Source: Candidatus Mcinerneyibacteriota bacterium (GTDB lineage: Bacteria > AUK180 > JAQVHJ01). Taken from it: DNA of 14,697 bases. This document shows, one piece after another, positions 1-14,582 of this stretch (within the stretch, counting starts at the first letter, position 1; the number at the start of each line of letters is the position of its first letter). Where the stretch lies: positions 1-14,697 of the forward strand of contig DAOVMD010000024.1 of the NCBI GenBank assembly GCA_030630935.1, read 5' to 3'. The notes under the pieces are model-generated. The model ran no database searches, was not told the origin of the DNA, and worked only from the letters and a program-made list of their open reading frames with translations. A program made the position numbers and the translations under genes.

Positions 1-1542
1 CAGGTTTTATTTGAATTTCCTGAAGGAAAACAAAATGATATAGATTACACTTATCTTGAAAGCTTTGATAAGAGTTCGGATAGTTTGCCGACCTCGGATT
101 TAAAATTAAATTTAGAGAAATTGATAATTTATTATCCTTTAATTTACAGGAAGCAATATGTTGGAATGCTAATATTTACTGAGCATCTTGACCCAGGTAT
201 TTTATTACAGATAAGAATGATAGAAAAGACTTCAACTGATTATCGCAGCCTTATTAAATTTGGAGAAAAGAGTTATTCTTTTGTATTAAATATCGGATTT
301 TTAATTGTTAGTTTAGTTTTATTATTCTTAACTTTTTGGATTGCATTCTATGTTGCCCGCCAGATTACCATTCCGGTTGAAGAGCTTCTTCAGGGCACCC
401 TAAAAGTTTCAAAAGGTGATCTTGATGTGAAGATAGAAGTCGAGACTACCGATGAACTTGGGCTTCTGGTTGACTCGTTCAATAATATGGTAAGAGATAT
501 TAAGGAATTGAATATTAAGAATCAGGAACATACGCAGTTTATTTCTTCAATACTACAAAATATTGGGACTGGTGTAATTGCGATCACACCTAACCAAAAA
601 GTTGTTGAGGTAAACGAGTCAGCAAAAGATTTATTAAAAATAAGTTCTGATGAAACCCCTGAGAACCTGAGTGAGTATTTTGAAGCGGAAAGTTTTGGCA
701 GGCTGAATAAATTAGTAGATGAGTGTTTTAAAAATAAAACAGAATGTATACATAAGGAACTTGATATAAAGGTGAAAGGTAAAAACTTGAATCTTCATTT
801 CGCCGTTACCGCAGGAATTGAATCAGTATCTGGTGGAGCAATATTAGTTTTTGATGATATTACACATATTATTCATCTTCAGAAAATTGAGGTTTGGAAG
901 GATGTTGCAACACAGCTTGCTCATGAGATTAAAAACCCTTTAACCCCGATTAAGTTATCAACTCAGCGCGTATTGAAAAAATATAATGAGGGCGCGGACG
1001 ATTTTGGTGAGATTTTGAACCGTTCATACTCAACAATAATCCAGGAGGTTGATAATATTAAATCTCTTCTTGACCACTTTAATGCATTTGCAAAATTACC
1101 ACCACCCAGCTTTCAAGACTATAGCCTGAATCAAATAGTCTCTGAAGTCGTTGATCTCTTTCGCAACCTTGAAAACATAAAGTTTATTGAAGAATATGAT
1201 GAAAATATTCCGAACTTATCATTAGATAAATTTCAGATAAAAAGAGTATTGAAAAATATAATTGATAATTCAATTGAATCATTTTTAAAGAAAGGGAAAA
1301 TTACAATTTCAACAATGTTTAATAAGTCCGAAAATTCGGCTTTATTGATTATAGTAGATAATGGAAAAGGAATGGAGAAGAATGAGCGTGAGAAAATTTT
1401 TCTGCCATATTTTTCTACAAAGGAGATTGGAATGGGGTTAGGAATGGCAATTGTTGAGAAGATCATTTCTGACCATAATGGAGAGATTGAAGTTTTTAGC
1501 CAGCCATATAAGGGAACCAAAGTACAAATAAAGTTTTTTTAA
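1..1542 (+). CDS. Sensor histidine kinase, NtrY-like (HAMP-PAS-HisKA-HATPase), 5' end outside window
   Basis: Membrane sensor kinase of a two-component system; the partner regulator is not in the window. The frame is open from base 1, so the gene starts upstream; a TTG at 85 could open a shorter frame but nothing supports it as the start. Counting codons from base 1: the end of an extracytoplasmic sensor region, one membrane segment at about 94-120, a HAMP linker at about 117-172 (ITIPVEELL...DELGLLVDSFNNM), a PAS-like region at about 180-290, the phosphoacceptor box LAHEIKNPLTPIKLS with His308, the N box (NIIDNSIES, Asn423), the G1 box VDNGKGM (Asp453) and a G2 box GMGLGMAIVEKI. The order and the NPLTPIKLS H-box resemble NtrY of the nitrogen-regulation family, but the signal sensed cannot be inferred. 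All catalytic boxes are intact. Six bases separate it from the comF-like gene, so the two are probably cotranscribed. Confidence 0.9.
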   Translation, partial: QVLFEFPEGKQNDIDYTYLESFDKSSDSLPTSDLKLNLEKLIIYYPLIYRKQYVGMLIFTEHLDPGILLQIRMIEKTSTDYRSLIKFGEKSYSFVLNIGFLIVSLVLLFLTFWIAFYVARQITIPVEELLQGTLKVSKGDLDVKIEVETTDELGLLVDSFNNMVRDIKELNIKNQEHTQFISSILQNIGTGVIAITPNQKVVEVNESAKDLLKISSDETPENLSEYFEAESFGRLNKLVDECFKNKTECIHKELDIKVKGKNLNLHFAVTAGIESVSGGAILVFDDITHIIHLQKIEVWKDVATQLAHEIKNPLTPIKLSTQRVLKKYNEGADDFGEILNRSYSTIIQEVDNIKSLLDHFNAFAKLPPPSFQDYSLNQIVSEVVDLFRNLENIKFIEEYDENIPNLSLDKFQIKRVLKNIIDNSIESFLKKGKITISTMFNKSENSALLIIVDNGKGMEKNEREKIFLPYFSTKEIGMGLGMAIVEKIISDHNGEIEVFSQPYKGTKVQIKFF

Positions 1543-1548
1543 AAATTA

Positions 1549-2268
1549 ATGTTTGAGAGAATTTTAGCGTTTCTTTTTAATCGGTACTGCTTTTTTTGCG
1601 GTAAGGTGTTGGGGTTAAAAGAAAGCAAATTATGTATAAAGTGTTATAATAAAATTGAAAGTTTTAGAGGTGTAGTTACTTGTAAGAAATGCGGGAGACC
1701 GCTACATTCTATGTACCCCTTAAACTTGGATTATACCTGTGGAATCTGTAGAAATAAACGGCTGCCTTACTCGGAACTATATGTATATGGTCCATATGCT
1801 GGGAAGTTAAGGGATTTGTTAATTGCATTAAAATTTCGAAATCAGTTTTGGGTTTCACAAGTTATTTCAGACCTGTTAATAAAAGACGAAAGATTTGCAA
1901 ATTTTATTTCAGGTGCAGATCTTTTGTTGCCGGTTCCTCTTCACTCAAGGCGTCTTGATTCCCGGGGGTTTAATCAAGTTTATTTATTTACTAAAGAGTT
2001 TAAGAAAAGGCTTAGTTTAAGTATCCCTATTTCTAAATGGGATGTGCTCCGGGTTAAAGAGACCGAGTTCCAAAAAAGCCTATCTCTCAGGAGAAGAATT
2101 TTAAACCTTAGGAAAGCTTTTATGATAAATAATATTTCTGCGATTCAAGGTAAAAAGATAATTCTAATTGATGATATCTTAACTACCGGAGCAACCGTTA
2201 TGTCTGTTTCCAAATTACTCCGAAAATCGGGGGCAAAAGAGATAAAAGTAGTTATTATAGCGAGATAA
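1549..2268 (+). CDS. comF: ComF family phosphoribosyltransferase-like protein
   Basis: A 239-aa protein of the ComF/GntX family, cytoplasmic, with an N-terminal zinc ribbon region and a C-terminal type I phosphoribosyltransferase fold. Four CxxC pairs are visible (Cys14/17, 29/32, 45/48, 64/67), enough for two zinc sites. The family core LLLPVPLHSRRLDSRGFNQV is present, as is the PRPP-binding loop ILIDDILTTGAT at about 206-216. In naturally competent bacteria ComF is needed for DNA uptake or processing of single-stranded DNA; its reaction is unsettled and homologues occur in non-competent species, so competence is not implied here. The length is normal for the family. ATG follows the kinase stop by six bases with no clear Shine-Dalgarno site, suggesting translation coupled to the kinase. 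Confidence 0.88.
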   Translation: MFERILAFLFNRYCFFCGKVLGLKESKLCIKCYNKIESFRGVVTCKKCGRPLHSMYPLNLDYTCGICRNKRLPYSELYVYGPYAGKLRDLLIALKFRNQFWVSQVISDLLIKDERFANFISGADLLLPVPLHSRRLDSRGFNQVYLFTKEFKKRLSLSIPISKWDVLRVKETEFQKSLSLRRRILNLRKAFMINNISAIQGKKIILIDDILTTGATVMSVSKLLRKSGAKEIKVVIIAR

Positions 2269-2309
2269 TTTTTTCTTTATATTCATATAATATATATATT
2301 AGAAAATCC

Positions 2310-2339
2310 TTGACATTATATTATTTTTTATGGTATAAT
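2310..2339 (+). promoter_or_regulatory. Sigma70-type promoter of the secreted protein/PorV-like unit
   Basis: A consensus -35 TTGACA (2310-2315) and consensus -10 TATAAT (2334-2339) are separated by 18 bases. Transcription would start near 2346, giving a leader of about 28 bases that carries the AGGAGG ribosome site at 2363-2368, five bases before the ATG at 2374. The match is near perfect, so high constitutive expression is likely. Confidence 0.85.
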
Positions 2340-2373
2340 ACAACTTAAATTAACGTCAAATCAGGAGGTCTAG

Positions 2374-4965
2374 ATGAAAAAGACTTTTATAGTCATAATT
2401 TTATTATTGGTTTTTTGGGGATTTGCTCTAAGTCCTGCCTATAGTGCATATAATGCACCAGAGGAATCTAATTGGGGTTATCTCTGGGCGGAATCAGCAA
2501 CTTTAGGTTATGAGTGCTTCTCAGGTTATTTCGCACCCAACTATATGGGTGGGTTTTATGTTTATACCTTGGTTGATAATATGATCTGGGATCCCGTTAA
2601 TGATCACTTGTATATGGGTGCGGTGTGGATAGGAAATGAAGATCTCCTTGACCAAGGAAGTGACTGGGCATTTACCAATGCCAATTCTTTTGAAATGCAA
2701 TATGTTCCTTGGGATGAAATGGAATGGGGTTCTCCGGTTATTGCTGTGGGGGGATACGATACATTTCTAAAAACACGCGGCATGAATACTGACCTTACAA
2801 TAGATATGAGAACCTTTTCAGATTACAATGATTCCTTTTTCATCCAGGTTTATATCATTCGAAATGATACAGAAACAGATTATAAAGGATTATATTTTGC
2901 TGAAGCTGTTGACTTTGATATAAATATGCAATATTCTCCGGAACAGAATCTTGGAATTGCTCAAACTTACATTTCTGATGCAGCTTCAGGTTATAAGGAG
3001 AAGGATGATTTTGCCGGTTATAATTCTACTTATCAAGTTGGGTTTATGTATGATAATGACCTTGGTACACCAAAGTATTTTGGAGTAAAATGTTTAACGG
3101 ATGAACTTGCTTCGTTTAACATCATTAAAGTTGAGCCGGCATACTTTTCCACATCATATTTAGGCGGGTCCTATAGCGGTGACGATAAAGGCGTTTATGA
3201 TATAGAGCCTTATTATTCTTTTGGCTGGCCTCTTATTTGCTGTTCCAACCCTATGCAGATTTATAATGCAGATTGTTATGACTATATGGCAAACAAAGAG
3301 TTTGATACTTCTCCGCCCAATGCGGGAGATTACCAAGTTGTTCCAGCTGTTGGTCCGTTTGACCTTGCTCCAGGAGAATATAAAATAATTGCATTTGCGA
3401 TTGGTGGTAACGAAGCTTCCGAAGCTGATTTAATGGATCAATTTAAAAATGCTTCTGTATATTATAATGTCAATGTTGACGGGCAATTAGATGATGCTAT
3501 TCCAGAGGCCGCTCCAGTTGAGGAGGCTGCTCCTTATGAAAAATATAATACTACTACATCTCAAACAGAAGCAGTCTTCAACTGGGTGTTAGATTCAAAT
3601 ATTACCGCATATTATACTGATAACTCTGGCTATAATGTTTACTATACAATTGATTGGGATATTTTTGTTTTTATATGGACCGGCAATACACCGATTGAGC
3701 TACATAGTTATCTTTCAAATACACTCTATAAACCCGTTTCTGCAACCTTTGAAGGTTTCCCTATGGTTGAAGGAACCGATTATACTGCTGGAGATTCTGT
3801 TCAGCTTTGGGTTACATCAGTTGGTCCTAATTGGGATAATGATACCTTTGTTAATCAGAGTAAAGAGTTAATTATGAATCTAGATACTACACCGCTTACT
3901 CCAACATTAACGTTGGACTTACTTCCTGATTCATCGGATGGTTCAGATATTCTTTTAACCTGGTCAGAAGCAGATACAAAAGACCAGGATATTAAACAGT
4001 ATAATATCTATAGAAGTTCCCCGGGGGGCGGGACAACTTGTCCTTTTGAAGTTGCGACAATTTTAACTTCTACAAGAATAATTGATATATATGGCCCTGC
4101 CGGTTTAGACGGAGGAGCAACTCCATTATTAATTTTAAGTGACGGTTCAACATATAGACCAAACACATATCTTCCCGGCTACGACACAACTCCGGATTCT
4201 GACGCGGATCCAATTTTGAATTTCGGCACAGAACACTTCCTCTTATGCGGGCTTGAGACAGGAACAACTTATATGTTTCAGGTTACTCTAACAGATTTCA
4301 CAGATTTAACTGCAAAATCTGATACTGTTACAACTGTAATGATGCCGGGGTCACCATTGAATTTAACTGCAACAATGGGACACCATATCGTTAAATTACG
4401 CTGGGAATTATCTTCTGACCCGAATGTCTTTAAGTATAATGTCTATAGAGCAAAAATTGCAACGGGGGCAGATGTGCCAGAAACTGATGATTATAAATTA
4501 ATCGGTGCAACCCTTGCTTCCAGTTTAAAACCCTGGAAATATAACGACAAAGATATTGAAGATTATCAGTTGTATTACTATTACGTTAAAGCCGTTGATA
4601 GAATCGTAAACTTAAATAGCTATATTTCAAATGTTGTTAGTGTTGAAACATCTTTCAGAACTTCAAAAGACCTTGAAGGAGTAGTAACCGTTCCGAATCC
4701 ATATAAGAAAGGAATTTCAAAAGTAAACTTTATCGCTTTTGCAAGATTAACTAAAGAAGCAGAGATAAATATATATACCCTTTCAGGAACACTCGTTAGA
4801 ACTTTAACACACTCACCAGCAGACCTTGACCTTCTCGGTCCAGGTATTAAAAAGTGGGACTTAAAAAATGAAGACGGTGAAGAAGTTGCTTCCGGCCTTT
4901 ATATTTGGGTTGTAACTAATCCAGCCGGCGATAAGAAAATTGGTAGATTAGTAATAATCAGATAA
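2374..4965 (+). CDS. Large secreted protein with fibronectin type III-like repeats and C-terminal FlgD-Ig/type IX-like sorting domain
   Basis: An 863-aa exported protein of unknown specific function. The N-terminus is a Sec signal peptide (KK, then a long hydrophobic core, with likely cleavage after AYSA at residue 25). Residues about 30-370 form a Tyr/Trp/Asp-rich region I do not recognise. About 380-500 is a Thr/Ser-rich and acidic stretch. About 501-658 and 659-757 look like two fibronectin type III modules: both carry the xxYNxYR strand motif and YxxxVxxxD-type strands. The last ~95 residues (VPNPYKKG..., INIYTLSGTLVRTL, DGEEVASGLYIWVV, KIGRLVIIR) match the FlgD-Ig/type IX-like C-terminal domain used for outer-membrane sorting in FCB-type bacteria. 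The next gene is a PorV-like barrel, fitting a secretion or anchoring pair. The start is fixed by AGGAGG at 2363-2368. Export and architecture are well supported; the role (surface or adhesive protein, or enzyme) is not. Confidence 0.85.
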   Translation: MKKTFIVIILLLVFWGFALSPAYSAYNAPEESNWGYLWAESATLGYECFSGYFAPNYMGGFYVYTLVDNMIWDPVNDHLYMGAVWIGNEDLLDQGSDWAFTNANSFEMQYVPWDEMEWGSPVIAVGGYDTFLKTRGMNTDLTIDMRTFSDYNDSFFIQVYIIRNDTETDYKGLYFAEAVDFDINMQYSPEQNLGIAQTYISDAASGYKEKDDFAGYNSTYQVGFMYDNDLGTPKYFGVKCLTDELASFNIIKVEPAYFSTSYLGGSYSGDDKGVYDIEPYYSFGWPLICCSNPMQIYNADCYDYMANKEFDTSPPNAGDYQVVPAVGPFDLAPGEYKIIAFAIGGNEASEADLMDQFKNASVYYNVNVDGQLDDAIPEAAPVEEAAPYEKYNTTTSQTEAVFNWVLDSNITAYYTDNSGYNVYYTIDWDIFVFIWTGNTPIELHSYLSNTLYKPVSATFEGFPMVEGTDYTAGDSVQLWVTSVGPNWDNDTFVNQSKELIMNLDTTPLTPTLTLDLLPDSSDGSDILLTWSEADTKDQDIKQYNIYRSSPGGGTTCPFEVATILTSTRIIDIYGPAGLDGGATPLLILSDGSTYRPNTYLPGYDTTPDSDADPILNFGTEHFLLCGLETGTTYMFQVTLTDFTDLTAKSDTVTTVMMPGSPLNLTATMGHHIVKLRWELSSDPNVFKYNVYRAKIATGADVPETDDYKLIGATLASSLKPWKYNDKDIEDYQLYYYYVKAVDRIVNLNSYISNVVSVETSFRTSKDLEGVVTVPNPYKKGISKVNFIAFARLTKEAEINIYTLSGTLVRTLTHSPADLDLLGPGIKKWDLKNEDGEEVASGLYIWVVTNPAGDKKIGRLVIIR

Positions 4966-4971
4966 ATATAT

Positions 4972-4977
4972 AGGAGG
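4972..4977 (+). promoter_or_regulatory. Ribosome binding site deciding the start of the PorV-like gene
   Basis: AGGAGG lies seven bases before the ATG at 4985 but only four before the in-frame TTG at 4982, so the ATG is preferred. Confidence 0.75.
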
Positions 4978-4984
4978 AATTTTG

Positions 4985-5986
4985 ATGAAACGTTTATTTA
5001 TTATTATACTAAGCATAATTTTAGTTTCACTTGCAATTCCGGTATTTGCAACAAGTACAGGTGGAACTTCTGCACAATTCTTAAAGATCCCGATTGGCCC
5101 AAGACCAGAATCTATGGGGGGGGCTTTTACAGGTTTAGCCGATGACGGTTCCGCTCTCTTCTGGAATCCTGCCGGGACCGGGCAATTTGAAAAAGCCCAC
5201 ATGATAGCCGGATATATCGGGTATGTTGCAAAAATTAAATATGAATATTTTGCAGCTGGTTTTCCCATAGGTGATTACTACAGATTGGGGATAGGGCTTG
5301 GAGCCCTGAATTCTCCTCCAATGCTTGTCACTACTTTTGAGACATTAGATATTGATGGAAATATAATCAATAATATCTATGGAACTGCAGGTGATGAATT
5401 TAATGCAAGTAGTAACTTATTTATTCTTAATCTCTCAAGAAAATTCAGGTATGGAGATAGAGACCTATTCTATGTAGGTGGAAACCTTAAATATGTCAGA
5501 GAATCTCTCGCGGATTATAAAGCATTTACGCTTGCATACGATCTCGGCATATTATTTAAAGTAACCGAATCATTCAGGCTGGGCTTAAGTCTTCAGAACT
5601 TAGGCGGCGAACTTAAGTTTATCTCTGAAAAAGAACAGCTTCCACAAGCATTCAGGTTTGGCCTATCTTATTTCTTTGTAAACAATGAGCTCAATAGATT
5701 GGTTGCAGCATCTGATATCGTTAAGTATATTGATGAAGATATTAAAGTTGGCATTGGTGGTGAATATACCTTCAGAGATTTATTTGTCTTAAGACTCGGA
5801 TATAACAATGCGGATCTCGGCTCAATGACAGCTGGTCTTGGAGTAATTATAAAGTTTATAAAAACACGAAGAGTAAAGGGCGTAGTGAAAAGGACTGAGA
5901 TGGTTAGAGTTGGAATCAACTATGCATTTGTTGATTATGGTGACTTTGGACAGACCCATAGGTATTCAGTTGGCTTCAGGTTTTAA
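4985..5986 (+). CDS. PorV/UPF0164-like outer-membrane beta-barrel protein
   Basis: A 333-aa outer-membrane protein of the PorV/PorQ-like (FadL-related, UPF0164) group. It begins with a Sec signal peptide (KR, hydrophobic core, predicted cleavage after VFA at residue 22). The family's typical opening follows: GTSAQFLKIPIGPRPESMGGAFTG, then DDGSALFWNPAG. The rest is alternating beta-strand sequence with Gly/Tyr-rich hairpins (LGLSLQNLGGELKF, LRLGYNNADLGS) and ends in aromatic GFRF, the usual barrel signature. In type IX secretion PorV is the shuttle that binds the C-terminal sorting domain of cargo and passes it to the attachment complex; the gene upstream encodes a protein with such a domain, so a cargo-carrier relation is plausible. 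No other type IX genes are in the window, so this cannot be proved. The gap to the upstream gene is 19 bases and a terminator follows. Confidence 0.85.
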   Translation: MKRLFIIILSIILVSLAIPVFATSTGGTSAQFLKIPIGPRPESMGGAFTGLADDGSALFWNPAGTGQFEKAHMIAGYIGYVAKIKYEYFAAGFPIGDYYRLGIGLGALNSPPMLVTTFETLDIDGNIINNIYGTAGDEFNASSNLFILNLSRKFRYGDRDLFYVGGNLKYVRESLADYKAFTLAYDLGILFKVTESFRLGLSLQNLGGELKFISEKEQLPQAFRFGLSYFFVNNELNRLVAASDIVKYIDEDIKVGIGGEYTFRDLFVLRLGYNNADLGSMTAGLGVIIKFIKTRRVKGVVKRTEMVRVGINYAFVDYGDFGQTHRYSVGFRF

Positions 5987-6012
5987 GTAGTATAAATTGA
6001 AATAAAATAAAT

Positions 6013-6045
6013 AAAAGCGTCTTTTATTTTAAAAGGCGCTTTTTT
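6013..6045 (+). terminator. Rho-independent terminator after the PorV-like gene
   Basis: Arms 6013-6025 (AAAAGCGTCTTTT) and 6031-6043 (AAAAGGCGCTTTT) pair over 13 bp with one G-U pair around a five-base loop. The T run continues to 6045. It ends only 23 bases before the GAPDH start codon. Confidence 0.85.
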
Positions 6046-6068
6046 AATCAATAACGGAGGAGATTCTA

Positions 6069-7097
6069 ATGGCAATTAAAATTGGGATAAATGGTTTTGG
6101 CCGAATAGGCAGATTAGTTTTTAAAAGATTAATGCTTGAAAAGAAATTTAAGGAAGATTTCGATATTGTAGGAATCAATGATTTAATACCGACTAAGCTT
6201 TTGGCACATCTTTTACAGTATGATTCTGTACACGGCAAATTCCCGATGGAAGTTTCTTATACGGAAGGTTCAATTATAGTTGGTGGTGAAGAGACTAAAG
6301 TTTTTTCTGAGAAAGACCCTTCAAATTTGAAATGGGGTGACCTTGGTGCAGAAATCATATTAGAATCAACCGGATTCTTCAGAACTCACGAGGCAGCATC
6401 ACTTCATTTGAAAGGTGGAGCAAAAAAGGTAATTATTTCAGCTCCTGCAAAAGGAGACAAAGGTGCAGACAGTACAATTGTTATGGGTGTTAATGAAGAT
6501 ACATATATTCCGGAAAAGCATTATATCTTATCCAATGCTTCGTGTACTACCAATTGCCTTGCTCCAGTAGTAAAAGTCCTGAATGACAACTTTAAAATTA
6601 AAAAGGGCTTAATGACTACTATTCATGCTTATACAAATGACCAGCAGGTTCTTGATGGTCCTCATAAAGACTTTAGAAGAGCCAGGGCAGCAGGACTTTC
6701 AATGATACCTACAACAACCGGAGCCGCAAAGGCAGTAGGGCTTGTTCTTCCGGAACTGAACGGTTTACTCGACGGTTTTGCAATAAGGGTTCCAACACCG
6801 GATGTATCAGTAGTCGATTTAGTTGTGACAGTAGAGAAAAACACAACTGTCCAGGAAGTAAATGATGCAATGAAGAAAGCCGCAGCAGATGGCCCAATGA
6901 AAGGATACCTTGTTTATACAGAAGTTCCATGTGTCACAGTTGATTATACTGGTGACCCTGCATCAAGTATCTTCGACGCTTTAAGTACGAAAGTCATAGA
7001 TGGAAATATGATTAAAGTCCTTTCGTTCTATGATAATGAATGGGGTTATGCTTGCAGGTGTGTTGATCTTATGAAATATATTAGTGAAAAGAAATAG
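6069..7097 (+). CDS. gap: Glyceraldehyde-3-phosphate dehydrogenase, type I
   Basis: Cytoplasmic glycolytic enzyme that oxidises glyceraldehyde 3-phosphate to 1,3-bisphosphoglycerate with NAD+ and phosphate. The 342-aa length is normal. The N-terminal Rossmann motif is INGFGRIGR (residues 7-15), followed by GINDL at the end of the second strand, which fits NAD preference. The catalytic motif SNASCTTNC places the nucleophile at Cys159, and the base is His186 in TIHAYTNDQ; their 27-residue spacing is standard. The C-terminal SFYDNEWGYACR is also conserved. GGAGG at 6056-6060 lies eight bases before the ATG. It is the first gene of gap-pgk-tpiA-secG. A terminator ends 23 bases upstream, so its promoter must be inside or before that hairpin, or it depends on read-through. 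Confidence 0.98.
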   Translation: MAIKIGINGFGRIGRLVFKRLMLEKKFKEDFDIVGINDLIPTKLLAHLLQYDSVHGKFPMEVSYTEGSIIVGGEETKVFSEKDPSNLKWGDLGAEIILESTGFFRTHEAASLHLKGGAKKVIISAPAKGDKGADSTIVMGVNEDTYIPEKHYILSNASCTTNCLAPVVKVLNDNFKIKKGLMTTIHAYTNDQQVLDGPHKDFRRARAAGLSMIPTTTGAAKAVGLVLPELNGLLDGFAIRVPTPDVSVVDLVVTVEKNTTVQEVNDAMKKAAADGPMKGYLVYTEVPCVTVDYTGDPASSIFDALSTKVIDGNMIKVLSFYDNEWGYACRCVDLMKYISEKK

Positions 7098-7104
7098 GTT
7101 TCCA

Positions 7105-8283
7105 ATGTCGATTAAAATTGTTGATGACTTTAATTTTAAAGGTAAGCGCGTTTTATTAAGAGTGGATTTTAATGTCCCAATTTCTAAGAATCGTGTTACT
7201 GATGACACCAGAATAAAAAGAGCTCTAAAAACAATTAGAAAAATAATTGATGCAGGCGGTCGATTAGTTGTGATGTCTCACCTTGGAAGACCAAAAGGAA
7301 ATATAGTTAAAGAATATATGATGGATCCTGTAGGTGAAAGATTATCCACGCTATTAAAACATCCTGTTAAGAAATTAACCGATTCGATTGGTGGTGAGGT
7401 GGAGAAAGCTGTTGCAGCTATGAAAGACAGAGATGTTATTCTCTTGGAAAACCTTAGGTTTCATCCCGGTGAAAAGGCAAATGACGAAGGCTTTGCAAAG
7501 GATTTAGCTAAGTTAGGAGATATATATATTAATGATGCGTTTGGTACAACTCATAGAGCACATGCTTCTATCTCAGGAATATGCAAATTTATTGAGAATA
7601 AGGGTATGGGATATCTGATTCAGAAAGAACTGGAAAACCTTTCAAAGGCAATTAGTAACCCATCTCTACCATTCCTCGCAATTTTAGGCGGAGCAAAAGT
7701 TTCAGGGAAGATTGACTTAATAAACAACATTAGTAATAAAGTTGACCAGATACTTATAGGCGGCGGAATGATGTTCACGTTTTTAAAAGCAAATGGATAT
7801 GAGATTGGAAACTCACTTCTTGAAGAAGATAAACTTGACCTTGCCAAAAAATTACTTGATGAAATCGGGAATAAACTTGTCATCCCGACTGATGTTAAAA
7901 TTGTAGATAGTATTGATAACCCGGACTCCTTAAGGATTGTAAAAATTGAAGATATGCTCTCTGATGTGATTGGAATTGATATCGGTTCTGAAACTATTAA
8001 GGCTTTCGAAAGCAAAATCTTAAAAGCAAAAACCGTTCTATTCAATGGCCCAATGGGAATTTTTGAAAAGAGTTCTTATGCCGAAGGTACGATAAAAATT
8101 CTGGAAGCCATCGCCAGAGCAAAATGCGTCAGTATAATTGGTGGTGGTGATTCAGCCGCTGCAGCAAATAAATTCGGATTTGAAAACGTATTTACACATA
8201 TCTCTACTGGAGGTGGTGCTTCACTTGAGTTCTTATCAGGAAAACCATTGCCGGGAATTGAAAGTTTGAAAAGCGAGGATTAA
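7105..8283 (+). CDS. pgk: Phosphoglycerate kinase
   Basis: Transfers phosphate from 1,3-bisphosphoglycerate to ADP, giving 3-phosphoglycerate and ATP; cytoplasmic and the step after GAPDH. The 392 residues match the family. Visible motifs are KGKRVLLRVDFNVP at 12-25 (substrate binding), SHLGRPKG, LLENLRFHPGEK, INDAFGTTHRAHAS, GGAKVSGKI at the interdomain hinge, FNGPMGIFE, the nucleotide-binding IGGGDSAAAANKFG and the C-terminal STGGGASLEFLSGK. A GTG at 7084 would add seven residues and overlap gap by 14 bases, but the ATG at 7105 gives the family N-terminus (SIKIVDDFNFKGKRV), so I chose it. It starts seven bases after the gap stop, and tpiA follows directly. Confidence 0.97.
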   Translation: MSIKIVDDFNFKGKRVLLRVDFNVPISKNRVTDDTRIKRALKTIRKIIDAGGRLVVMSHLGRPKGNIVKEYMMDPVGERLSTLLKHPVKKLTDSIGGEVEKAVAAMKDRDVILLENLRFHPGEKANDEGFAKDLAKLGDIYINDAFGTTHRAHASISGICKFIENKGMGYLIQKELENLSKAISNPSLPFLAILGGAKVSGKIDLINNISNKVDQILIGGGMMFTFLKANGYEIGNSLLEEDKLDLAKKLLDEIGNKLVIPTDVKIVDSIDNPDSLRIVKIEDMLSDVIGIDIGSETIKAFESKILKAKTVLFNGPMGIFEKSSYAEGTIKILEAIARAKCVSIIGGGDSAAAANKFGFENVFTHISTGGGASLEFLSGKPLPGIESLKSED

Positions 8284-9526: not shown

Positions 9527-9614
9527 GCCGGGGTGGTGGAACTGGTAGACACGCTAGGTTGAGGGCCTAGTGGGCTTTTAGCCTGTACGGGTTCAACTCC
9601 CGTCCCCGGCACCA
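9527..9614 (+). tRNA. tRNA-Leu, anticodon GAG
   Basis: An 88-nt class II tRNA. The acceptor arms GCCGGGG (9527-9533) and CCCCGGC (9604-9610) pair perfectly, with discriminator A at 9611 and an encoded CCA at 9612-9614. The anticodon stem CTAGG/CCTAG holds a seven-base loop TTGAGGG with anticodon GAG at 9561-9563, which reads leucine CUC and CUU codons. A long variable arm follows (GGGC TTTTA GCCT), as expected for leucine tRNAs. The T arm is ACGGG/CCCGT with loop TTCAACT. It lies 88 bases after secG. Confidence 0.97.
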
Positions 9615-10286: not shown

Positions 10287-10315
10287 TTGATTTATTTTGT
10301 GAGATATGCTATAAT
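10287..10315 (+). promoter_or_regulatory. Sigma70-type promoter of the marR-CDF unit
   Basis: -35 TTGATT (10287-10292) and -10 TATAAT (10310-10315) are separated by 17 bases. Transcription should start near 10322. The promoter lies within the apparent open frame that begins with the TTG at 10287, which rules that codon out as the start. Confidence 0.8.
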
Positions 10316-10317
10316 AA

Positions 10318-10332
10318 TATCGTATTACGAAC
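10318..10332. promoter_or_regulatory. Operator candidate over the marR-CDF transcription start
   Basis: TATCGTATTACGAAC, core CGTA-T-TACG centred on T10325, begins two bases after the -10 box and covers the predicted start of transcription. A protein bound here would block initiation, as expected for MarR-type autoregulation. Confidence 0.6.
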
Positions 10333-10352
10333 TAAAAATGAGGAAAAACATT

Positions 10353-10820
10353 ATGAATCCATATTTAAAGAAGTTGAAAAGGGGGAAGGATTTTAAGATG
10401 CTAGAGAAGTTGAATTCCTTGGTTCCTGATTTAAAAGAGCTTTTAGAGATGCTTTTAGTAATTGAGAGTGAAGAGCGTTTAACCCCTGTGAAGTTTCGTG
10501 CGGCGGGAATATTAGCGAAATCAGGAATGATAAGCGGTCAAGAGTTCAAGGATGAGATAGGTTTAGCTCAGAGTACGTCATCAGAATTATTGAGTCGAAT
10601 GATAGTTGACGGTACTGTTATCAAGGTCTTGGATAAGTTGGATGGGAGAAAGGCCGTGTTTTTATTATCAGAAGAAGGTGAGGATATATATTTTCGTATT
10701 TCAGCTATGCGTATGAAGAGGATGAAACTTATACTTGGTTATTTAAATGATTCAGAGAAGAAGAAGCTTTTATCTTCAATCACGGAGATCTCGACTCTTT
10801 TTAAAAAACTTGAAGAGTAG
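10353..10820 (+). CDS. MarR-type winged-helix transcriptional regulator
   Basis: DNA-binding regulator, probably a repressor of its own transcript and of the metal transporter that follows. From this start it has 155 residues. An N-terminal helix (LNSLVPDLKELLEMLL) precedes the winged helix: LTPVKFRAAGILAKSG, then the helix-turn-helix GQEFKDEIGLAQSTSSELLSRMIVDG and the wing IKVLDKLDGRKAVFLLSEEGEDIY, then long dimerisation helices. There is no Cys or His in the protein, so a thiol or His-based metal site is absent. Start choice: the promoter excludes the TTG at 10287; the ATG at 10353 has GAGGA eight bases before it, while the ATG at 10398 has AAGGA seven bases before it and would give 140 residues. 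Both are possible. The family call is firm; the effector is unknown. Confidence 0.8.
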   Translation: MNPYLKKLKRGKDFKMLEKLNSLVPDLKELLEMLLVIESEERLTPVKFRAAGILAKSGMISGQEFKDEIGLAQSTSSELLSRMIVDGTVIKVLDKLDGRKAVFLLSEEGEDIYFRISAMRMKRMKLILGYLNDSEKKKLLSSITEISTLFKKLEE

Positions 10821-10822
10821 GT

Positions 10823-11716
10823 ATGGACAAGCGAATCAAGGTAACCGTTACAGGATCAATTTTAAATATTTTTTTATCAGCAATAAAGCTTACTGCGGGA
10901 TTTCTTGGAAATAGTTACGGTTTAATTGCGGACGGGATTCATTCCCTCTCTGATTTAGTTACCGATATTCTGGTTGTTTTTGGTATTTTAATTGGGAAAA
11001 AACCTCCTGACGAAGGTCATCATTATGGACACAAGAAACTTGAGAATATTGCTGAAGTTTTAATGGGGTTAATTTTAATAATTTTATCAATTAAACTTTC
11101 CGTCTCATCTTTTAAGATACTCCTAAGCGGGAAGGTTTACACGCCTGCTTTTTACACAATTTTCATTGCAATTATTTCAGTCATAATAAAAGAATATTTA
11201 TATCGTGTTACTAATAAAATTGCAAAAGAATGCAATTCAGATGTTCTTTTAGGAAACGCCTGGCATCATAGGAGTGATGCATTAACATCCGTTATTATTG
11301 TTTTTAGTTTAGGGATTGGAATTTATTTCCCAAAGTTTTATTTTATAGATGCGATAATAAGCATAATGATTTCTATTATAATAATGTATTTAGGGATAAA
11401 GATAACGATGAGGTCGCTTAATAAACTTTCTGATGCTGCACCACCTGAAGGTTATAGGAATAATGTCGAGCAAGAGATTGAATTAATCGAGGGTGTTGGG
11501 AATGTACACGGTCTCCGGATGAGGTTTTTAGGGAGTCAGATTTATATTGAATGCCATGTGGAGGTAGATCCTGATATTTCAGTTAGCTTAGGGCATGATA
11601 TTGCAACAGAGATTAAGGACCATCTTATGGTCTGGGATAAAAACATTGTTGAGGTAATGGTTCATATTGAACCGCTTGGCGATCATCTAAAAATACATAA
11701 CTCAGATTTTAAATAA
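10823..11716 (+). CDS. Cation diffusion facilitator (CDF) family metal transporter
   Basis: A 297-aa inner-membrane divalent-metal/proton antiporter, probably an exporter that lowers cytoplasmic Zn2+ or a similar ion. Six membrane segments are readable, followed by the cytoplasmic C-terminal domain from about residue 205. The transport site is HxxxD in segment 2 (His40 and Asp44 in ADGIHSLSD) and HxxxD in segment 5 (His148 and Asp152 in AWHHRSDALTS). In characterised CDF proteins a His-Asp pair in both segments goes with Zn2+/Cd2+, while manganese members have Asp in place of His, so Zn2+ is the best guess. The C-terminal domain carries ECHVEVDPD, LGHDIA and VMVHIEPLGDH, typical metal-binding dimer sequences. 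The ATG lies two bases after the marR stop, so the two are one operon. Its 3' end overlaps the convergent transpeptidase gene by 15 bases. Confidence 0.93.
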   Translation: MDKRIKVTVTGSILNIFLSAIKLTAGFLGNSYGLIADGIHSLSDLVTDILVVFGILIGKKPPDEGHHYGHKKLENIAEVLMGLILIILSIKLSVSSFKILLSGKVYTPAFYTIFIAIISVIIKEYLYRVTNKIAKECNSDVLLGNAWHHRSDALTSVIIVFSLGIGIYFPKFYFIDAIISIMISIIIMYLGIKITMRSLNKLSDAAPPEGYRNNVEQEIELIEGVGNVHGLRMRFLGSQIYIECHVEVDPDISVSLGHDIATEIKDHLMVWDKNIVEVMVHIEPLGDHLKIHNSDFK

Positions 11717-12673: not shown

Positions 12674-12844
12674 AATTTTATCTTCCTTTTAGGATTATAT
12701 TAACATAAATTGTTATAAAAATCCATAATATTTTCAATATTTTTTTTAATTTCAGATACATAAGAATTTTAATAAACCTTTTTTATGCTTGTTGTACCAA
12801 TTACTTGTTATTGTAAACAGGATTTTTTAAACAATTATTATTCG

Positions 12845-12888
12845 TTTCAGTTGCACGATTTGTCAATTGACAAATCGTGCAACTGAAA
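12845..12888. repeat. Perfect 44-bp palindrome
   Basis: Two 22-base arms (12845-12866 and 12867-12888) are exact inverse complements with no spacer: the left arm begins TTTCAGTTGCACGATTTG and the centre is TCAA|TTGA. No T run follows on either strand and no gene ends into it, so it is not an ordinary terminator. TTGACA occurs on both strands from the centre outward. It could be an operator, a cruciform-forming site, or a copy of a dispersed REP or miniature inverted-repeat element. Confidence 0.9.
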
Positions 12889-13042
12889 AAAATATTTCTA
12901 AATAATAAATTATATGCGCAGTTATATAGATCTCAGATGCGTCACAAACATTGTTTTGTGTACAATTCTTTTGTATTTGTTTGCAAAGTATCAGAGTTGT
13001 TTGAAGATCACACATTTGAATATGTTTTCAACACTTCAGTTC

Positions 13043-13063: not shown

Positions 13064-13085
13064 CATTTTAAATTGTATTTTTTTC

Positions 13086-13114
13086 TTGACTTTAATTTTA
13101 TATTGTGATATAAT
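13086..13114 (+). promoter_or_regulatory. Sigma70-type promoter of the AhpD-like/ArsR/GcvH-like unit
   Basis: -35 TTGACT (13086-13091) and -10 TATAAT (13109-13114) with a 17-base spacer. The start would be near 13121. GAGGAG at 13128-13133 then precedes the ATG at 13138, giving a leader of under 20 bases. Confidence 0.85.
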
Positions 13115-13137
13115 TTAATTCCATTTTGAGGAGAAAA

Positions 13138-13539
13138 ATGCAAGATAATAAAGATAAAAAAGACTTTTCAAAACAATGTTATAAAAACGAACAAGAACAG
13201 AAGGTTTTAAGAAAGGGGTTAAGGGATTACAGAAAAGCTAATCCCAATTTCGCAAAGGGCTTTATTGAACTATGGCGAAAAAGTAAAGAGGGGACGAGTA
13301 TTCCAAAAGTTTATAAGGAATTGATGGAACTTTCAATAACAATTGTACAACGCTGCAGGCCATGCATTTTTTTACATACTCGCTTGTGTCTCGAAGCAGG
13401 TGCAACCATTGAACAACTTTTAGAAGCAACTCAAGTCGGTGTTGTAATGGGCGGTGGTCCCTCTTATCAATATTTAGGTTATGTGATGGAAGCAATTGAA
13501 GTCTATAAGAATAAAATTGAAAAGAAGAGAGGGGAATAA
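13138..13539 (+). CDS. AhpD-like/carboxymuconolactone decarboxylase family protein with CxxCxxxH
   Basis: A 133-aa cytoplasmic protein of the AhpD/CMD alpha-helical family. The core reads LMELSITIVQRCRPCIFLHTRLCLEAGATIEQLLEATQVG: redox pair Cys73 and Cys76 with His80, the CxxCxxxH signature of the thiol-active branch, followed by the usual helix pair and a GGGPSYQY segment. Members with this motif act as disulfide reductases or peroxidases; mycobacterial AhpD is reduced through a lipoylated acyltransferase. True decarboxylase members lack the Cys pair. The N-terminal ~35 residues are charged (DNKDKKDF). The ATG at 13138 is chosen over the in-frame TTG at 13126, which lies partly in the GAGGAG ribosome site. 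Its stop overlaps the ATG of the ArsR gene (TAATG), so the two are translationally coupled. Confidence 0.88.
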   Translation: MQDNKDKKDFSKQCYKNEQEQKVLRKGLRDYRKANPNFAKGFIELWRKSKEGTSIPKVYKELMELSITIVQRCRPCIFLHTRLCLEAGATIEQLLEATQVGVVMGGGPSYQYLGYVMEAIEVYKNKIEKKRGE

Positions 13540-13823
13540 TGCATCTTTCAAAACGAGATTGTTTGAAAATTTCGAAATTTTCAAAAACTTTCGCAAATCC
13601 TTTGAGAGTTCAATTAATGTGTTCTCTCAAAATAGGACCGAAGAATGTTTCGACTTTATGTGATGAGCTATTATCAAAAGAATCGAACATCTCTCAGCAA
13701 CTGCGATATCTTTGGCAGGTTGGATATATTGCAAAAAAGAAGAAGGGACGAGAAACGTTTTATTCGCTTAAAAACATTGAAGTGATAAAACTCTTACAAA
13801 AATTAAAAGAGCTGGCTAAGTAA
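13539..13823 (+). CDS. ArsR-type winged-helix transcriptional regulator
   Basis: A small (94-aa) DNA-binding repressor, probably controlling its own operon. The family fold is visible: helix SKTFANPLRVQLMCSLKIGPKNV, the helix-turn-helix STLCDELLSKESNISQQLRYLWQVG, the wing IAKKKKGRETFYSL and a final helix. ArsR proteins release DNA on binding metal or on thiol oxidation. The ELCVCDL arsenic motif is absent; three cysteines occur (Cys8, Cys28, Cys41), with Cys41 near the start of the recognition region, so thiol or metal sensing is possible but unproven. The start shares one base with the preceding stop codon, and GAGGGG at 13529-13534 may serve as its ribosome site. A GcvH-like gene follows 39 bases later. 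Confidence 0.88.
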   Translation: MHLSKRDCLKISKFSKTFANPLRVQLMCSLKIGPKNVSTLCDELLSKESNISQQLRYLWQVGYIAKKKKGRETFYSLKNIEVIKLLQKLKELAK

Positions 13824-13832
13824 AATCAGCTC
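13809..13832 (+). other. Weak hairpin at the end of the ArsR gene
   Basis: GAGCTG (13809-13814) can pair with CAGCTC (13827-13832) around a 12-base loop, spanning the arsR-like stop. No T run follows, so termination before the GcvH-like gene is unlikely. Confidence 0.3.
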
Positions 13833-13862
13833 CAAAAATAAATTTAATTCAGGAGGTTAATT

Positions 13863-14282
13863 ATGGCAGAGCTACAAGGGTATTTAGTACCGGATGAACT
13901 TTATTACCATAAAGAACATATGTGGGTTCGTATCGAAGGAGATACTGCAACAGTAGGAATTACAGACTTCTCTCAAAAATTAGCCGGGGAAATTTCTTTT
14001 ATTGAATTACCCAGTGAAGGTGATGAAGTTGCAAAAGAACAGATTATCGGAACTATTGAGACTGGAAAATGGATGGGTAAAATATATGCACCAATCTCAG
14101 GTGAAATTACAGAAATCAATGAAGACGTTGATGATGAACCCGAAAAAGTCAATGAGTCTCCATATGAAGCTGGCTGGTTATTTAAAATGAATGTATCAGA
14201 TTCTTCTGAATTAGATTCTTTAATGAAAGGTGAAGCGGTACTTGATTGGCTAAAAGGCGAGATTGAGAAACACGCCAAGTAA
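13863..14282 (+). CDS. GcvH-like lipoyl carrier protein (glycine cleavage system H family)
   Basis: A 139-aa protein with the single hammerhead lipoyl domain of glycine cleavage H proteins. Conserved blocks are HMWVRIEGDTATVGITDFSQKLAGEISFIELP, then KEQIIGTIETGKWMGKIYAPISGEI, then NESPYEAGWLFKM. The lipoylated residue is expected to be Lys69 in ETGKW. Canonical GcvH has ESVKA there and LGD where this protein has KLAGE, so it belongs to a variant branch. In the glycine cleavage complex the H protein carries aminomethyl groups between P, T and L proteins; none of those genes is in the window. Variant H proteins elsewhere serve as carriers in sulfur metabolism or redox modules. AGGAGG at 13851-13856 lies six bases before the ATG, and no terminator separates it from the ArsR gene, so it may share the AhpD-like transcript. 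Confidence 0.9.
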   Translation: MAELQGYLVPDELYYHKEHMWVRIEGDTATVGITDFSQKLAGEISFIELPSEGDEVAKEQIIGTIETGKWMGKIYAPISGEITEINEDVDDEPEKVNESPYEAGWLFKMNVSDSSELDSLMKGEAVLDWLKGEIEKHAK

Positions 14283-14543
14283 CATCGGGGATTGATTCCT
14301 CTCACTTCCAAATAATTATTTATCCGACATAACATATTGAAACATTATGTTCTTCTCCATTTTAGTTGATTGAAATTCCCAGGAAAGCCTGCTTAGCCCT
14401 TAATATATAGGACTCTTTATTTTTGTTCGAATACATATTCCTTTTTCATTAACTTTTGAAAGTTCTTTATTTTGGATTTTTGCTTGTAATTTTCATTTTT
14501 CTTCATGATTTAAATATTCTTTCTCTTTTTTTATTGTTTTCAT

Positions 14544-14563
14544 ACTAGCCCTAAACGGCTAGT
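14544..14563. other. Seven-bp hairpin ACTAGCC/GGCTAGT
   Basis: ACTAGCC (14544-14550) and GGCTAGT (14557-14563) pair perfectly around CTAAAC. No T run follows on either strand, though a T-rich run precedes it on the plus strand. Confidence 0.5.
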
Positions 14564-14582
14564 GTTATGTATTGTAATTACC

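Follow-up and report, generated by a model that had tools for sequence, protein, structure and literature searches.

A GcvH-like lipoyl carrier encoded with an AhpD-like protein and an ArsR regulator, and its linkage to Hdr and sulfur-relay genes in relatives

Gene layout of the locus

The window, the whole stretch of 14,697 nucleotides analyzed here, carries near its end three genes on the + strand. They encode a 133-residue AhpD-like thiol oxidoreductase of the CMD family (13138-13539), a 94-residue regulator of the ArsR/SmtB type (13539-13823; HTH_5/ArsR, 5e-8) and a 139-residue GcvH-like lipoyl carrier of the K-W clade described below, devoid of cysteine (13863-14282; PF01597, 6.5e-43). 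The TAA stop codon of the ahpD-like gene (13537-13539) shares one base with the ATG of the ArsR gene (13539), and 39 bases separate the latter from the gcvH-like gene. Our scan of this gap revealed neither promoter nor terminator on the + strand, in agreement with an earlier note on this DNA, which had described the overlap and the terminator-free spacing. A promoter of its own for the gcvH-like gene, which would have spoken against the reading of that note, was not found.

The promoter that the note had called strong is an extended -10, sigma-70-type promoter upstream of the ahpD-like gene (13086-13114, + strand; TTGACT-17-TATAAT with the extended TG, 11/12 in the promoter scan). A genome of the same family (the sister genome, locus L050) has a near-consensus counterpart, TTGACA-17-TATAAT, also with a TG before the -10 and at about the same distance from the ATG. 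Ribosome-binding sites precede the ahpD-like gene (GAGGAG, 13128-13133, + strand; GAGGAGAAAAATG is identical in L050) and the gcvH-like gene (AGGAGG, 13851-13856, + strand). A possible intrinsic terminator lies at 14542-14565 on the + strand; it is weak, with 0.7 such matches expected in the scanned region. The contig ends 415 bases past the stop codon of the gcvH-like gene, and these bases hold no further gene and no remnants of tusA-dsrEFH. Overall, the DNA from 13079 to 14282 shares 67% identity and its gene order with the sister genome, which argues that the arrangement of the trio is more than chance. The 10-base inverted repeat in the promoter region of the window, a candidate ArsR operator, is not kept there.

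Other features of the window surround this operon. A near-perfect palindrome of 56 nt (28-nt arms, no loop) lies at 12839-12894, between a ykuD-like gene and the ahpD-like gene; a second copy of its perfect core lies elsewhere in this genome, on contig C337 (L043, 3097-3134), which indicates a dispersed palindromic repeat. Genes for a MarR-like regulator and a CDF metal transporter (10287-11716) lie upstream; in the sister genome nothing separates them from the AhpD operon, whereas the reverse-strand YkuD-like gene intervenes in the window. A tRNA-Leu(GAG) gene just downstream of secG (9527-9614) is 92% identical in the sister genome.

The AhpD-like protein bears the CxxCxxxH motif noticed earlier, as Cys73-x2-Cys76-x3-His80 (codons at 13354-13377, + strand), and matches both the CMD profile (PF02627, 4.2e-12) and the ahpD_dom profile (TIGR00778, 32.8 bits; cut-off, 27.8). 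It thus combines the CMD/AhpD domain, the CxxC and the histidine by which AhpD is recognized, and the AhpD structure PDB 5dik also matches it (4.7e-14). A further cysteine, Cys84, four residues past the motif, was present in 10 of the 15 relatives compared.

The ArsR protein has three cysteines (Cys8, Cys28 and Cys41), all retained in the sister genome. Sulfane-sulfur sensors of the ArsR family (SqrR/BigR/sHdrR) are defined by a pair of cysteines in helices alpha-2 and alpha-5 (PMC12423496). The window protein resembles SqrR, BigR, sHdrR and HlyU in its ArsR fold, in an adjoining sulfur operon and in Cys28, which aligns with the alpha-2 sensing cysteine of SqrR/HlyU. It differs from them in having Cys8 and Cys41 and no alpha-5 partner, so sulfane-sulfur sensing through the known bridge is not supported for it. 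ArsR regulators lacking this pair accompany other sulfur operons, too (PMC12423496). An ArsR gene in the operon was found solely in the window's own family.

The GcvH-like protein as a second paralog

The fold of the GcvH-like protein is that of H proteins (TIGR00527, 136 bits; cut-off, 116), and the lipoylation lysine previously noted is Lys69, within ETGKW (codons at 14058-14072, + strand), aligned with ESVKA of the canonical GcvH of the same genome. The latter is encoded by a gcvT-gcvH-gcvPA operon on a separate contig (C455) and is 41% identical to the window protein. We built a tree of 93 sequences (74 H-like proteins and 19 canonical GcvH). The H-like proteins formed one clade apart from the 19 canonical proteins (support, 100/100), and the window protein fell in a subclade (97/93) with proteins of Aerophobetes and WOR-3/Stahlbacteria. 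Tryptophan directly follows the lipoyl lysine (K-W, as in ETGKW or QSRKW) in 74/74 clade members and in 0/19 canonical GcvH. NCBI models name the proteins of this clade glycine-cleavage GcvH, mostly above the curated cut-off; their separation would correct a systematic misannotation.

The neighborhoods agree with the tree. Within 5 kb of 80 gcvH-like loci, gcvT was found in one and gcvPA in none. The earlier note had considered that the gene might travel with gcvT/gcvP in relatives: this holds for gcvT near the gcvH-like gene of two genomes only (L185, at ~5 kb; L089, at ~7 kb) and for gcvPA at none of the 80 loci. In L185, a canonical gcvT-gcvH-gcvPA operon with its own canonical gcvH (385-7543) lies ~5 kb from the GcvH-like/DsrEFH operon.

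An ordinary second H protein of glycine cleavage or one-carbon metabolism, merely adjoining a thiol gene and a regulator, would account for the TIGR00527 score and for the operon close by in L185. This reading is largely contradicted by the phylogeny (distinct clade and motif), and the neighborhoods and the separate operon in the window's own genome also speak against it, leaving it a very slight probability. On these three grounds we rejected a glycine-cleavage role: the protein neither groups with glycine-cleavage GcvH nor shows their linkage to gcvT/gcvP. The distinctness of the lone GcvH-like protein, as first proposed, is therefore upheld. Judging by its relatives, it would be a dedicated lipoyl carrier rather than a glycine-cleavage H protein.

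Neighborhoods in relatives and Hdr, sulfur-relay and lipoate genes

The genomes compared were all drafts, mostly from uncultured bacteria. Neighboring genes were assigned to clusters by similarity and the cluster representatives were identified by profile. With a completeness of 80% for the window genome and 72% for its sister, parts absent from them are not readable as losses. The trio is not unique to the window genome, a concern raised at the outset: in the sister genome (G001; L033 and L050), the same order is embedded in a co-directional series, CDF-AhpD-ArsR-GcvH-like-TusA-DsrE2-DsrE-DsrF-DsrH.

Among 147 genomes of the WOR-3/Stahlbacteria phylum, the profile of the AhpD subfamily had 13 matches at E<1e-20, and in 10 of the 13 the gene came immediately after hdrC-hdrB. 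At six of these ten loci (L051, L055, L169, L172, L174 and L175), AhpD was followed within 4 kb by a gcvH-like gene and by tusA and/or DsrE-type genes; its reading frame is broken in L055. Two orders were observed, FNR-HdrA-HdrC-HdrB-AhpD-[DsrE]-DsrE2-DsrE-DsrF-DsrH-GcvH-like and FNR-HdrC-HdrB-AhpD-TusA-DsrE-DsrF-DsrH-GcvH-like. Close relatives of the GcvH-like protein were found in 15 genomes of this phylum, alongside Tus/DsrE genes in 12 of them. AhpD and the GcvH-like protein co-occurred in 8 of the 147 genomes, against 1.2 expected (hypergeometric P of ~6e-7, treating genomes as independent and ignoring their kinship); in two of the eight, the genes were on different contigs. Each of the five genomes checked encodes just two CMD-family proteins, so that a chance adjacency is unlikely. 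The association is not strict: AhpD lacks a linked gcvH-like or hdr gene in L168, L170 and L178, in several genomes it adjoins hdrB without a GcvH-like gene, and stand-alone gcvH-like genes occur in L188 and L192. Around the 80 wider gcvH-like loci (within 5 kb), genes of lipoate assembly (ligase, LipS1, LipS2 or LipT) were present in 50 and Hdr-type genes in 21. A histidinol-dehydrogenase-like gene precedes the gcvH-like gene, lipoate ligase and LipS in 37 of the 80 (L070, L127 and other Desulfobacterota-type loci), forming a second conserved gene order that has no Hdr. Stahlbacteria-type loci also encode a protein of 78 residues without a Pfam match, ahead of AhpD or TusA.

The neighborhoods thus offer well-supported linkage among AhpD, GcvH-like, Hdr and sulfur-relay genes. 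The pairing of the AhpD-like and H-like proteins suggested by the earlier note stands, given the linkage in the window genome, its sister and six WOR-3 genomes and the excess co-occurrence. Its self-contained trio does not, since what stays constant across the relatives is HdrC/HdrB, TusA and DsrE/F/H and the ArsR gene is local. The linkage and these neighbors indicate that the AhpD-like and H-like proteins belong together inside an Hdr/sulfur-relay system and not in a three-gene peroxidase module.

Such a module would work as in Mycobacterium: the lipoylated H-like protein would donate the electrons by which the AhpD-like protein reduces a peroxiredoxin or peroxides directly, and ArsR would act as an oxidative-stress switch. 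The CxxCxxxH motif, the ahpD_dom match and the co-occurrence with a lipoyl carrier fit this scheme, and the reduction of AhpD by lipoyl proteins is given as established in PMC8945050, which cites Bryk 2002. The AhpD-SucB-Lpd chain described there resembles the present case in its possible redox pair of a lipoyl protein and a CxxC protein of the AhpD type, but its lipoyl group sits on an acyltransferase, as opposed to the free H-like carrier here, and most members of the present AhpD subfamily have the extra cysteine. Moreover, ahpC or another peroxiredoxin gene was recognized in none of the operons seen, AhpD has hdrC/hdrB and tus/dsr genes as its constant neighbors, and in several genomes it adjoins hdrB without the carrier. 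We regard the peroxidase scheme as distinctly unlikely; the wider context points to Hdr-coupled sulfur or disulfide redox chemistry over peroxide defense.

In Stahlbacteria-type loci, an aldehyde dehydrogenase gene (PF00171) repeatedly follows the gcvH-like gene (L174, 5916-7295; L172, 13065-14444; L175, 11917-13320; and others). The lipoyl arm could accordingly bear an acyl group made by this enzyme, Hdr re-oxidizing or reducing the lipoyl dithiol. The frequency of the gene in these loci speaks for an acyl carrier, but it is absent from the window, from the sister genome and from loci of the L051/L169 type, and TusA/DsrEFH would be left unexplained. This makes the acyl reading highly improbable.

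In L169, one operon unites the FlxABCD-HdrABC genes: it encodes MvhD/FlpD, two Fe-S proteins, an NAD-binding flavoprotein, an HdrA2-like protein of 918 residues, HdrC and HdrB (CCG domain). L169 also encodes TusD-, TusC- and TusB-like proteins (TusB above the cut-off) and DsrE2. In the window genome, HdrA-MvhD-FlxB-FlxC-FlxA-HdrA (C34) is cut by the contig end, and a second cluster encodes MvhD-DsrE-TusA-MvhD-HdrA (C109). HdrC and HdrB of the relatives' type are missing from this 80% complete assembly and present in the sister genome; only one DsrE-family protein was found in the window genome. The lipoate-assembly genes that the note had proposed to look for are present, clustered in a LipS2-LipT-LipS1-ligase operon on C322, with NCBIfam scores of 219 bits for LipS2 and 188 bits for LipS1, under the strict cut-offs of 270 and 230. 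The ligase of C322 (L150, 242-1792; 516 residues) has a C-terminal region of ~190 residues beyond its LplA/LplB match. None of the 12 genomes examined had a DsrC (PF04358) match above the cut-off, and DsrC was rejected as the Hdr partner on this basis.

A possible lipoyl-dependent Hdr system and its known counterparts

Hdr-type complexes are widespread in anaerobes, yet to our knowledge only methanogens and bacteria with DsrC have a known disulfide substrate for them. We propose that the GcvH-like protein serves, as a dedicated lipoyl carrier, a cytoplasmic system of sulfur/disulfide redox chemistry with Hdr, in which the AhpD-like protein is the thiol-exchange partner; we hold this to be fairly probable. 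Against it speak the lack of tus/dsr genes behind the gcvH-like gene in the window, the single DsrE-family protein and missing HdrC/HdrB of the window genome, the unlinked ahpD or gcvH-like genes of some relatives and the glycine-cleavage operon close by in L185. Lys69 would probably be lipoylated by the products of the LipS1/LipS2/ligase operon. TusA and the DsrE/F/H-type sulfurtransferases could then hand sulfane sulfur to the lipoyl arm. This arm, as dithiol/disulfide or loaded with sulfane sulfur, would be the substrate presented to the CCG subunit HdrB, which may connect via HdrC/HdrA to MvhD and the FlxABC-like NAD subunits. The CxxC of the AhpD-like protein may swap electrons or thiols with the lipoyl group or with HdrB, resetting the redox state of the carrier. 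Gene order suggests these roles for HdrB, TusA/DsrEFH and AhpD. In the window's family, the ArsR within the operon would probably repress it, its cysteines sensing thiol-reactive species. Since the hosts lack DsrC, are rich in Hdr and are apparently anaerobic (as far as the genes found and the types of host suggest), NADH-driven reduction of sulfane sulfur or of a disulfide appears likelier than oxidation.

The GcvH-like carrier might thus fill the vacant place of a disulfide partner for the Hdr enzymes and, being encoded in the operon, is a concrete and testable candidate for their substrate. Going further, the lipoylated H-like protein may be the physiological disulfide substrate of FlxABCD/MvhD-HdrABC complexes in bacteria that have neither DsrC nor the coenzymes of methanogens; its sulfane sulfur would come from TusA/DsrEFH, and an AhpD-type protein would be a dedicated subunit for thiol exchange. 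The H-like protein would then provide a third "heterodisulfide" after CoM-S-S-CoB and DsrC, a suggestion that we put forward tentatively and with more doubt than belief. If true, lipoate-dependent sulfur metabolism would reach deep uncultured bacterial and archaeal lineages, beyond the (mostly) sulfur oxidizers, and an AhpD-type protein would gain a role outside peroxide defense. Our literature search found no paper that connects CMD-family proteins to TusA and the oxidation of sulfur, nor one on WOR-3 with Hdr and DsrE.

The closest described carrier is LbpA, a GcvH-like lipoyl protein that, by experiment, Hyphomicrobium requires for its Hdr-type oxidation of sulfur and that is matured by LipS1/LipS2/sLpl(AB) (PMC6067878, PMC10332631). 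The sHdr-LbpA systems of Hyphomicrobium and Thioalkalivibrio share with ours a lipoyl protein outside glycine cleavage, an Hdr-type enzyme, TusA/DsrE, lipoate-assembly genes and an ArsR. A sulfur oxidation of this kind would turn TusA/DsrE-bound sulfane sulfur into sulfite, the lipoyl protein carrying the intermediates, and the same classes of genes (Hdr, lipoyl GcvH-like, TusA, DsrE and LipS1/S2-ligase) are found in Hyphomicrobium (PMC6067878, PMC10332631). However, two conserved cysteines near the N and C termini define LbpA, some archaeal LbpAs excepted (PMC6067878), and the window protein, which has the lipoyl lysine, has no cysteine at all. In place of shdrC1B1AC2B2, the relatives of the window encode a single HdrC-HdrB and a long HdrA2-like protein with MvhD/Flx. 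They also have a TusBCD/DsrEFH set, an AhpD-like protein is not described for sHdr-LbpA, and the hosts here are different and apparently anaerobic. We therefore consider sulfur oxidation of the sHdr-LbpA kind unlikely. The system would work like the LbpA/Hdr systems, but we do not file it under LbpA, as it has neither the cysteines that define this protein nor a duplicated HdrCB. Plasmid searches for LbpA references with the GcvH-like and LipS2 proteins returned gcvH-type matches or nothing.

The second counterpart is the FlxABCD-HdrABC complex that Desulfovibrio possesses (Ramos 2015 and Ferreira 2023, both cited by PMC10553843); for the Flx-Hdr of sulfate reducers, DsrC is the presumed partner (PMC10553843, PMC5296606). 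The L169 operon matches this complex in MvhD, two Fe-S Flx proteins, an NAD-binding subunit, HdrA, HdrC and HdrB, and in the window genome the parts are split over contigs. For the Desulfovibrio complex, DsrC has been put forward as the disulfide partner, whereas no DsrC scored above the cut-off here, and the systems described in this work add AhpD, TusA/DsrEFH and a lipoyl carrier to the complex.
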